From assembly GCF_024662215.1 (NCBI RefSeq), contig NZ_CP096115.1:1116001-1180000 (forward strand): a DNA stretch of 64,000 nt. The letters are read 5' to 3'. The notes below the pieces were generated by a model, which searched no databases, was not told where the DNA came from, and worked only from the letters and a program-made list of their open reading frames with translations. Made by a program: the position numbers and the translations under genes. Positions 53,452 through 57,311 of the stretch are shown here, one piece after another. Position 1 is the stretch's first letter. Each line of letters opens with the position of its first letter. Source of the stretch: Methanoplanus endosymbiosus. Lineage in GTDB: Archaea > Halobacteriota > Methanomicrobia > Methanomicrobiales > Methanomicrobiaceae.

Positions 53452-54999
53452 ATGCAGAAACAAGGTGACAATTCAACAGATAAAATACAGATACACTGGG
53501 CAGATGTGATTGCATCAAAGGTTGATGCAACCGTCCCGCACAGAATTGCAACGGGCATCACCCCGTCCGGGCCTATACACATAGGAAATATGCGCGAGGT
53601 GCTCACCGGAGATATAGTATATAAGGCAATGACTGACAGGGGAATTGATGCCGAACTTATATACAATGCAGACGATTTTGACCCTCTAAGGAAGGTCTAT
53701 CCTTTCCTCCCGGAAAGTTATACAGAATATATCGGAATGCCAATATGTGACATACCATGCCCCTGCGGAAAGCATGAGAGTTACGCAGACCATTTCCTCG
53801 AACCATTCCTGAAATCACTTGAGGAACTTGATGTAAAGCCAAAAGTTCTGAAATCAAGTGAATTATACAGAACAGGAAAATATACAGAACAGGTAAAGAC
53901 TGTCCTTGGAAAGAGCACTGAAATTAAGGAAATTCTTGAGCGCGTATCCGGCAGGACGCTTCCGGACTCATGGGTGCCATTCTACCCAATATGCAAAGGG
54001 TGCAGAAAAATAAGCAATGCAGAGATCCTTGAGCATATTCCGGAGAAGAACCTTGTCAAATATAAATGTGAATGCGGACACGTTGACTACTGCGACTACT
54101 CCAAAGGCGAGGGAAAACTTGTATGGCGTGTTGACTGGCCGATGAGATGGTCAGCACTCGGAGTAACCGTTGAACCGTTCGGAAAGGATCACTCCGCAGC
54201 CGGAGGTTCATATGACACCGGAAAAGAGATTGTAGAGAAGATCTTTGGCGGCAGTGCACCTTTCCCAATCCAGTATGAATGGATCAGCCTTAAGGGTAAG
54301 GGCGCAATGGCATCATCAACAGGCGTTGCAATATCAATAGAGTCAATGCTTGAGATAGTGCCGCCCGATGTGCTAAGGTACCTGATAGTCAGAACAAAAC
54401 CTGAAAAGGCAATCAGCTTTGATCCGGGAATGGGACTTCTGACACTTATAGATGAATATGCAAGATTATCCGATAAGGGAGAAGGACGCGAATATGAACT
54501 ATCCGCAATATCAGATGTGGCAACCGACATACCGTTCAAGCACCTTGTAACAGTCGTGCAGATTGCACAGGATAACGATGCAATATTTGATATACTGAAG
54601 AGAAGCGGATATGATGTCAAAAACCGGGATGCTGTCCTTAGAAGAGCAGAGAGGGCAAAGATCTGGGTTGGAAAATACGCACCTGACATGGTAAAATTCA
54701 CAGTAAGAAAAGAGCTTCCTGAAGAAGTACTCTCATTCAGTGCGGCAGACATTGATGCACTGACCCTGCTTATTGAAAAATACGCAGCACTGAAGGAATG
54801 GAAAGCCGAATTCCTCCATAATGCAATATACGATCTCGGCAATGAAACAGGTGCAAACCCGAAAGATATCTTCACATGCATTTACATGGCAATTCTCGGA
54901 CAGAAGAGAGGCCCGCGTGCAGGATGGTTTATTGAGGCACTCGGACAGGATTTCGTTATGAAAAGGCTTCTTGAGACGGTGAATGCAGGTGCTCAGTAA
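53452..54999 (+). CDS. lysK: Lysyl-tRNA synthetase, class I
   Basis: A 515-residue class I LysRS, the archaeal type rather than the bacterial and eukaryotic class II enzyme. HIGH-like motif: ITPSGPIHIGNMRE (about residues 36-49). The second signature is in ISLKGKGAMASSTG (about 280-293). Cysteine pairs (CPCGKHE, CKGC, CECGH) suggest a zinc-binding insert. No Shine-Dalgarno sequence is clear before ATG 53452. It is the first gene of an overlapping unit with a radical SAM protein and UppS. It lies opposite the pilin cluster across a 228-bp gap. Confidence 0.95.
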   Translation: MQKQGDNSTDKIQIHWADVIASKVDATVPHRIATGITPSGPIHIGNMREVLTGDIVYKAMTDRGIDAELIYNADDFDPLRKVYPFLPESYTEYIGMPICDIPCPCGKHESYADHFLEPFLKSLEELDVKPKVLKSSELYRTGKYTEQVKTVLGKSTEIKEILERVSGRTLPDSWVPFYPICKGCRKISNAEILEHIPEKNLVKYKCECGHVDYCDYSKGEGKLVWRVDWPMRWSALGVTVEPFGKDHSAAGGSYDTGKEIVEKIFGGSAPFPIQYEWISLKGKGAMASSTGVAISIESMLEIVPPDVLRYLIVRTKPEKAISFDPGMGLLTLIDEYARLSDKGEGREYELSAISDVATDIPFKHLVTVVQIAQDNDAIFDILKRSGYDVKNRDAVLRRAERAKIWVGKYAPDMVKFTVRKELPEEVLSFSAADIDALTLLIEKYAALKEWKAEFLHNAIYDLGNETGANPKDIFTCIYMAILGQKRGPRAGWFIEALGQDFVMKRLLETVNAGAQ

Positions 55000-55954
55000 G
55001 GCCTGCCGGCAATGCCGTGAAGGTGCAAAGATGGTGCTCTTTGTAACCGGAATGTGCAGTAAGAAATGCTGGTACTGCCCGATATCAGATGAGAGAAGAG
55101 GCAAAGACCGTGCCTATGCAAATGACAGGGTAATAATCCGGCCGGAAGATATGATCGAAGAGGCACGGATTATGTCAGCGCTCGGCACAGGGGTTACAGG
55201 AGGAGAGGCACTATTAGAGATGGACAGAGTCATGTCATTCTGCCGCCTCCTAAAACGTGAATTTGGTGAAGAACACCACATACACCTCTATACCGGAACT
55301 GCGCCCGATGAAGAGTGCTTAAAAAACCTTAAGGGACTTGTTGACGAGATAAGGATGCACCCGCCGCATGAAGTGTGGAAGGAGATTCTGAGTACTGACT
55401 ATATCAAATCAGCAAAGAAAGCAAAAGAGATGGGTTTTGAGGTAACCATTGAGGTACCGTCACTTCCGGGACTAAAATATCTCATACCCGCTCTGCCTTA
55501 TCTTGACTATATGAACATCAATGAGCTGGAATGGTCTGAGACCAATGCTGAAGAGATGAGAATACGTGGGTACAGCCTTGAGGATAACTACCACAATGCA
55601 GTACCAGGAGCAAAGGCATGGGCAGAGGAGATTTTAAAAGATCCTAAGGTTCACTGGTGCTCATCAACCTTCAAAGACTCAGTCCAGCTAAGAGAGCGCC
55701 TCAAAAGAATAGCAAATAATACAGCAAGACCCTTTGAGGAGATAACAGATGACGGAACAGTCGTGTACGGAGTATGGTATCCGGAATGTGACATACCGGA
55801 AGATCTCGAAGAAGACCAGTATGAAAAGTATGATGACAGGATAGAGACCTCATGGTGGATCTTAGCTGATTTTCCGGATGACTTCCCCGGCAGAAAAGAG
55901 ATCATCGAGAGATACCCGAACAACGGAATGGTTGTAGAGGTTACACCTTTATGA
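54983..55954 (+). CDS. Radical SAM protein of unknown function
   Basis: A 323-residue radical SAM enzyme. The [4Fe-4S]-binding motif is CSKKCWYC (CxxxCxxC, about residues 25-32), followed by GTGVTGGEALL, which corresponds to the SAM-binding GGE motif. Two further Cys at the N-terminus (ACRQC) could bind metal. It resembles archaeal proteins described as related to pyruvate-formate-lyase activating enzymes, but the substrate is unknown. It overlaps lysK by 17 bp and uppS by 4 bp, so all three are translationally coupled. The operon places it between tRNA charging and polyprenol synthesis without a clear hint of function. Confidence 0.85.
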   Translation: MQVLSKACRQCREGAKMVLFVTGMCSKKCWYCPISDERRGKDRAYANDRVIIRPEDMIEEARIMSALGTGVTGGEALLEMDRVMSFCRLLKREFGEEHHIHLYTGTAPDEECLKNLKGLVDEIRMHPPHEVWKEILSTDYIKSAKKAKEMGFEVTIEVPSLPGLKYLIPALPYLDYMNINELEWSETNAEEMRIRGYSLEDNYHNAVPGAKAWAEEILKDPKVHWCSSTFKDSVQLRERLKRIANNTARPFEEITDDGTVVYGVWYPECDIPEDLEEDQYEKYDDRIETSWWILADFPDDFPGRKEIIERYPNNGMVVEVTPL

Positions 55955-56730
55955 AGAGAGCAAAAGCATATTTTGAATCGCTCTATGAGAAATACCTGCT
56001 GAGGCAGTGCAGGCATGTCCCAAAACATATAGCCATAATACAGGATGGCAACCGGAGATTTGCCAGAGAGTCCGGCATTGAGGTTGCACTGGGGCACAGG
56101 CTTGGTGCTGAGAAGACCGAAGCTGTCATGGACTGGGCACACGACATCGGTGTTACAGATATGACACTGTACTGTTTTTCAACGGAAAATTTCAGAAGAA
56201 CCAAAGATGAACTTGGGGAACTATTTACCCTGTTTACCGAAAAAGCGATTGGCATTGTCTCTGACGAGAGAGTGCATAAGAATAAGATAAAATTCCAGAT
56301 GGTCGGTGACAGAACCCTTCTTCCAGAGGATTTCCTCAGGAAGATTGAGAGAGTTGAGGAACTTACAAAGGACTATGACCATTTTACAATAAACCTTGCC
56401 ATTGCATACGGCGGAAGAAATGAGATTGTCCTTGCAGCAAAGTCAATCCTTCAGGAAGCTCATAATGGAGAACTATCACCGGAAGAGATCGACATCAAAA
56501 CAATCGAGGCTCACCTCTACAGGGAACAGAATATCCCGCCCGTAGATCTGATTATAAGAACAGGCAATGATAAAAGAACCTCTAATTTCCTGCCGTGGCT
56601 TGCAAACGGCAACGAATCAGCAGTATATTTCTGTGCGCCATACTGGCCGATGTTTCGAAAGATAGATCTCTTAAGGGGAATTCGGATGTATGACCAGAGA
56701 ATTAAAAACGATTCTACCTACCTGCCATAA
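55951..56730 (+). CDS. uppS: cis-Prenyltransferase (UppS family), catalytic-type subunit
   Basis: A 259-residue cis-prenyltransferase that makes long polyprenyl diphosphate for glycan carrier lipids. Catalytic motifs are kept: IQDGNRRFAR with Asp32, the YCFSTENFRR segment and DLIIRTGNDKRTSNFLPW with both Arg residues and Ser. The C-terminus ends RMYDQRIKNDSTYLP and lacks the RxG motif found at the end of homodimeric enzymes. The convergent neighbour has RxG but lost the catalytic Asp. It overlaps the radical SAM gene (ATGA) and the convergent gene by 13 bp. Confidence 0.93.
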   Translation: MKRAKAYFESLYEKYLLRQCRHVPKHIAIIQDGNRRFARESGIEVALGHRLGAEKTEAVMDWAHDIGVTDMTLYCFSTENFRRTKDELGELFTLFTEKAIGIVSDERVHKNKIKFQMVGDRTLLPEDFLRKIERVEELTKDYDHFTINLAIAYGGRNEIVLAAKSILQEAHNGELSPEEIDIKTIEAHLYREQNIPPVDLIIRTGNDKRTSNFLPWLANGNESAVYFCAPYWPMFRKIDLLRGIRMYDQRIKNDSTYLP

Positions 56731-57311
56731 CGCCTTTTACGGGTCTGATAATCCCTTAAGGCACGAAGGAATTCTGTTTTTCTAAACTGCTTCCAGTTTA
56801 CATCTGAGAAGAAAAGTTCCGAGTACACAGACTGCCATATAAGAAAGTCAGTCAGGTAACTTCCACCGGTTTTAATGACAAGATCCGGCTCGTAATTGAA
56901 AGTCAGATATGACTCAATCATCTTTTCATCGACATCATCCGGATTTATTCCATCCTCTGCCATCTTCCTGACACACCTTACAATCTCATCGCGTCCGCTC
57001 ATTCCTATAACAATATATACTTCCACTCCGTTTCCGGATACTTCGGTTTTATCACCGTAAGTGAGAGTAAGTTTTGCAAAAGAAGATATTTCACGAAGAA
57101 ACGGGAGATAATTATCAGGATCATCCAGATTATCCGTATTTATATGGAAAATAACATTTTTGATGCCGCATTTAATGCACCATCCGGCAACTTCCTGAAT
57201 TTTCTCCGGGGCATCCGTCAAATCACGGCCGGTAAGCATAAAACAAAGTGAATCTGGAAGGTACTTTAGTTCCCTCTCCAGTCTCCATTCGTAATACCTG
57301 TGCACCAGCAT
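56718..57311 (-). CDS. Degenerate cis-prenyltransferase paralogue, NgBR/Nus1-like subunit
   Basis: A 197-residue protein whose C-terminal half is clearly UppS-like (PDLVIKTGGSYLTDFLIWQSVYSELFFSDVNWKQFRKTEFLRALRDYQ). The N-terminal catalytic motif DGNRRxA is absent: the corresponding region reads LPDSLCFMLTGRDLTD. In the IRTGG region the first Arg is Lys, and the second is missing. The C-terminus RKRRYGR contains RxG (Arg194-Tyr-Gly196). This is the pattern of the non-catalytic subunit of eukaryotic heteromeric cis-prenyltransferases (NgBR/Nus1), and a heteromeric enzyme has been reported in Methanosarcina mazei. It faces uppS with overlapping 3' ends. Assignment as partner is inference. Confidence 0.82.
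   Translation of the reverse strand: MLVHRYYEWRLERELKYLPDSLCFMLTGRDLTDAPEKIQEVAGWCIKCGIKNVIFHINTDNLDDPDNYLPFLREISSFAKLTLTYGDKTEVSGNGVEVYIVIGMSGRDEIVRCVRKMAEDGINPDDVDEKMIESYLTFNYEPDLVIKTGGSYLTDFLIWQSVYSELFFSDVNWKQFRKTEFLRALRDYQTRKRRYGR

Follow-up and report, generated by a model that had tools for sequence, protein, structure and literature searches.

A convergent gene pair of Methanoplanus endosymbiosus that very probably encodes a two-subunit cis-prenyltransferase of the kind reported in Methanosarcina mazei

Homodimeric UppS enzymes, such as those of E. coli and the Asgard archaea, unite the RxG motif, the Y-x-E loop and the catalytic Asp of the cis-prenyltransferase (cPT) in a single chain. 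In the human DHDDS/NgBR enzyme (Rer2/Nus1 in yeast), a catalytic chain that has no RxG is joined by a catalytically dead chain that ends in it; the C-terminus of NgBR crosses the dimer interface, L291 and G292 bind the phosphate at the IPP site through their backbone nitrogens, and the R290H substitution in NgBR lowers activity (PMC7573591). A heteromeric archaeal cPT, formed by MM_0618 and MM_1083 of Methanosarcina mazei and giving C45-50 products, is reported in PMC8131916, which cites Emi et al. 2019. M. mazei also has MM_0014, a cPT that lacks RxG, ends in TLGG and needs no such partner for activity (PMC8131916); the absence of RxG alone is therefore no proof that a partner is required. 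In this study, we describe two adjoining genes of Methanoplanus endosymbiosus, here called A and B, whose sequences clearly place them in the type already reported in M. mazei; the pair is not new in kind. We propose that their products very probably act together as one heteromeric cPT for a glycosyl-carrier lipid, in which the tail of B would complete the active site of A.

The window, that is the whole stretch of DNA analysed, comprised 64,000 nucleotides of the M. endosymbiosus genome. The features of the locus, in window coordinates, are as follows.

54983..55954, + strand: radical SAM protein gene, immediately 5' of A and sharing 4 bases with the start of A
55951..56730, + strand: subunit A, UppS homologue (MM_0618-type), predicted catalytic cis-prenyltransferase, 259 aa, without C-terminal RxG
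56044..56058, + strand: D32-G-N-R-R36 of A, putative site for the allylic diphosphate and Mg, the role being taken from DHDDS D34/R37/R38 (PMC7573591)
56557..56583, + strand: R203...R209-T-S211 of A, putative IPP-diphosphate site, equivalents of E. coli R194, R200 and S202
56718..56730, no strand assigned: overlap of the 3' ends of A and B, 13 bases
56718..57311, - strand: subunit B, NgBR-like cis-prenyltransferase homologue (MM_1083-type), predicted non-catalytic, 197 aa
56724..56732, - strand: R194-Y-G196 of B, the RxG tail, proposed to reach into the active site of A by analogy with NgBR R290-L-G292 (PMC7573591)
56817..56825, - strand: Y163-S-E165 of B, equivalent of E. coli Y211-A-E213

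Reading frames in the window placed A and B in convergent orientation with shared bases at their 3' ends, and the location, convergent orientation and 3' overlap that a first-pass annotation of this DNA had given for the adjoining pair were all correct, the overlap measuring 13 bases. Since the two genes are transcribed convergently they have no shared mRNA, and this orientation is counted against a heteromer, as is the fact that some families encode A and B far apart. The genes around the pair are lysS, the radical SAM gene, dph5, and those for a DUF357 protein, a flippase-like LPG_synthase_TM protein and an archaeal PEP carboxylase. The radical SAM gene lay directly 5' of A, in the same orientation, in all 30 Methanomicrobiales loci read (30/30), and its product matched no NCBIfam equivalog above the cut-off; it is a conserved neighbour of A, for which we make no claim as a part of the enzyme. 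A radical SAM gene was also seen upstream of A in 7 loci from other families. A scan for sigma-70-type promoters and terminators, with a model ill-suited to archaea, returned nothing above chance.

Comparison with the PF01255 profile gave a match to A over model positions 1-215 of 219 (E 6e-65) and a match to B over the C-terminal half only (107-219, E 1.2e-28); B additionally gave a full-length phmmer match to human NUS1/NgBR (E about 1e-4). The complete genome (3.16 Mb) holds no PF01255 genes other than A and B, so that no further complete enzyme is available in it, and a paralogue of the MM_0014 type is absent. The best matches in M. mazei showed 48% identity to A (E 3e-85) and 35% identity to B (E 2e-40). 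The genome concerned (G406) was taken as M. mazei because its third PF01255 protein is almost identical to PDB 7caq, MM_0014; A was then assigned to the MM_0618 type and B to the MM_1083 type by elimination (three PF01255 genes, one of them MM_0014) and from gene spacing. The two-subunit M. mazei enzyme to which the first-pass annotation referred corresponds to the heteromeric pair reported in PMC8131916, and both of its genes have a match here. The two systems agree by sequence in both subunits, share the same motif partition and belong to the same phylum, but the M. mazei genes lie about 550 kb apart and its A has a longer C-terminal extension, whereas in M. endosymbiosus the genes are adjacent, convergent and overlapping. 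MM_0014 and MA1831 of M. acetivorans are of the cPT family and lack RxG as A does, but represent a distinct single-gene paralogue.

Alignment with E. coli UppS revealed that A has the active-site residues DGNRR (D32, N34, R35, R36), S77/N80/R83 and R203/R209/S211 and a C-terminus of ...RIKNDSTYLP, without RxG. The original description of A, as a UppS with the catalytic Asp and Arg residues and no C-terminal RxG, applied at every active-site residue checked. Both D32-G-N-R-R36 and the residues R203, R209 and S211 were invariant across 48 A proteins; equivalents of E. coli D26/N28/R30/S71/N74/R77/R194/R200/S202 were present in 42/42 A proteins, and an RxG end was found in none of the 42 examined. 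Past the last helix the tail of A is not conserved, its length and sequence varying among families. The loop of A that matches E. coli W207-E213 has a 2-residue insertion, located after a conserved Glu, and a G in place of Y211; the alignment is ambiguous as to whether the Glu of A still sits at the E213 position, and loss of that Glu was dropped as a clean fourth hallmark. The fold and the catalytic residues of A are shared with homodimeric UppS, whose RxG and Y-x-E loop are here divided from the catalytic Asp between A and B.

In B, the DGNRR position is occupied by T-G-R-D-L in the same type of alignment, and K147, Y and T stand in place of E. coli R194, R200 and S202. The W-Q-x-x-Y-S-E loop (E. 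coli W207-E213) is retained, and the protein ends in R193-R-Y-G-R197. The loss of DGNRRxA and the RRYGR end had thus been read correctly at first, but not the IRTGG motif, of which only the second Arg was said to be lost: both are gone, the first having become Lys and the second Tyr. A Lys at the R194 position is found in B and human NgBR alike. Among 37 B proteins, the RxG motif kept its Arg in 36 and its Gly in all 37, and the Y and E of the Y-S-E loop were likewise present in 37/37, while neither DGN nor R30 was found in any (0/37). Loss was uneven at single positions, with an Asp aligned at D26 in 3/37 and R200 kept in 14/37. Two genomes of one family carry a B of about 165 aa (L113:257-760, + strand; L114:386-877, - strand) in which much of the N-terminal half is gone and YAE or YSE, followed by an RRFG end, is retained.

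Structures were predicted for the single chains. The model of A (pLDDT 91.7) had human DHDDS as its top fold match (7pb1_A, Z 31.6, rmsd 2.0 over 246 residues), but other cPTs scored within 1 Z unit, and the fold match is therefore not specific to DHDDS. A cPT fold was also obtained for B (pLDDT 86.8; best Z 15.9, rmsd 2.9, 186 residues). The third, or tunnel, helix comprised 20 residues in the model of A (85-104) and 9 in that of B (69-77). Two segments of B were modelled with the lowest confidence, residues 151-170 and the final block of residues; ordering of these segments upon contact with a partner would be expected.

The survey of distribution covered this phylum and the Asgard group. 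That all Methanomicrobiales have the pair, a point raised when the pair was first noted, was found to be so to within genome completeness: 192/199 genomes gave a match, about 182 of the 192 with exactly two copies, and the genomes without a match were mostly incomplete. A and B lay tail-to-tail in 39/40 Methanomicrobiales genomes compared, and fewer than 400 bases separated the two matches in 29/40. Across the phylum, a B profile matched 238/246 genomes and 200/202 of the near-complete ones. When one genome per family of the phylum was read, nearly every family had a single A and a single B with their motifs divided in the same way, a split that recurred in 42 A and 37 B proteins from about 30 families; the convergent arrangement was present in about ten further families, the genes being apart in others. 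The convergent pair is therefore, we infer, probably ancestral in the phylum. Stop-to-stop spacing in the loci read ranged from a 186-base overlap to a gap of more than 900 bases. At one locus (L090:1288-1473), about 186 bases are shared by the tail-to-tail frames of A and B, and the sequence for the C-terminus of B lies opposite an extension of A. A chance neighbourhood of the two genes was ruled out by the recurrence of the split in about 30 families and by the tail-to-tail order in 39/40 genomes.

The residues conserved in A and in B agree with the division of labour described for DHDDS/NgBR. In the proposed mechanism, A would bind the allylic primer diphosphate and Mg via D32, R35, R36, S77, N80 and R83, would bind IPP via R203, R209 and S211, and would perform repeated cis condensation. 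B, in which the cPT fold and the W-Q-x-x-Y-S-E loop are kept, the catalytic Asp is missing and the tunnel helix is greatly reduced, would pair with A; its R-Y-G-R tail would cross the interface, close the active site of A and hold the IPP diphosphate, a role that RxG plays across a homodimer and that NgBR plays for DHDDS. The product would most likely be a polyprenyl diphosphate of medium length, about C45-C60, serving as glycosyl-carrier precursor for N-glycosylation; a shorter product is expected for the archaeal pair than for DHDDS/NgBR. Further differences concern the ends of the chains. NgBR has an N-terminal membrane anchor, whereas B has none and places a charged helix (MLVHRYYEWRLERELKYLPD) ahead of the domain; DHDDS has a C-terminal helix-turn-helix domain that makes tetramers, whereas A ends 3 residues past the last helix of the domain.

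The first-pass annotation had called the pair an enzyme of NgBR/DHDDS type. The complementary loss on which that label was based is real, extending through the order and the phylum, and the mechanism is probably alike; common descent of the two-subunit state with the eukaryotic one, however, is the less likely reading, in view of the single-gene enzymes of the Asgard archaea. In the Asgard group, taken around a Baldrarchaeota genome, 137/148 genomes gave a match, of which 127 had a single copy, and most matches spanned the whole profile. DGN.R, Y-[SA]-E and RxG stood in one chain in 30/30 Asgard proteins read. The homodimer type is thus that of the presumed relatives of the eukaryotic host, and the simplest account of the two-subunit enzyme of eukaryotes is a separate event. 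A tree built from 68 proteins set A and B each on one side of a branch (support 86/59 and 91/100), which is consistent with a single old duplication. Most likely, a homodimeric enzyme was duplicated once, early in this phylum, independently of the DHDDS/NgBR split. We also consider it fairly probable that the split arose at least twice by the same partition of motifs, early in the phylum and in eukaryotes, with the Asgard archaea remaining single-gene and the archaeal pair originally tail-to-tail.

Descent of the pair from the same two-subunit ancestor as DHDDS and NgBR, which would be compatible with a heteromeric function, is unlikely. It would account for the same division of motifs and for the K at R194 in both B and NgBR, it agrees with the full-length match of B to NgBR, and AU tests rejected neither a clade of B with NgBR (p 0.43) nor one of A with DHDDS (p 0.29). 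That sequence data do not reject a shared origin is partly due to the strong divergence of NgBR, whose branch is very long (about 6 changes per site). Against such an ancestor stand the Asgard genomes, almost all of which hold a single PF01255 gene, the enzymes read being complete and of homodimer type, and the free tree, in which DHDDS and NgBR grouped weakly with those of the Asgard archaea (74/89). Parallel origin is accordingly preferred here. As a separate observation, near-eukaryotic actin genes (53-93% to human) occur at loci L116-L121 and L123-L127, in records whose titles name bacteria or bacterial MAGs; these are probably, for the most part, eukaryotic contamination of the assemblies.

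It is quite improbable that A is a self-sufficient homodimeric synthase, its own C-terminus replacing RxG as in MM_0014, and that B only modulates chain length or amount. In favour of this reading, MM_0014 is active with a TLGG end, DHDDS by itself is able to form homodimers of weak activity (PMC7573591), and the conserved remodelled loop of A could compensate. Yet the tail of A is unconserved past the last helix, while the RxG of B is nearly invariant, and the matching M. mazei pair is reported as heteromeric (PMC8131916). That B is a decaying paralogue with no role in prenyl transfer, as its missing DGNRR, shortened N-terminal half and long branches in some families might suggest, is hardly credible for a protein that is intact, kept in nearly all genomes of the phylum and best conserved at the interface loop and RxG, even its most reduced copies still ending in RRFG; this retention and the conserved motifs also ruled out a pseudogene.

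The heteromeric reading of A and B takes a two-subunit synthase of glycosyl carriers beyond the single methanogen studied and extends it to almost an entire archaeal phylum. It would also provide small, anchor-free partners for studying how a non-catalytic subunit completes an active site, the step that is impaired in human disease due to NgBR R290H. Should the origin prove to be parallel, the pair would represent a clean natural repeat of the evolution from homodimer to heterodimer.
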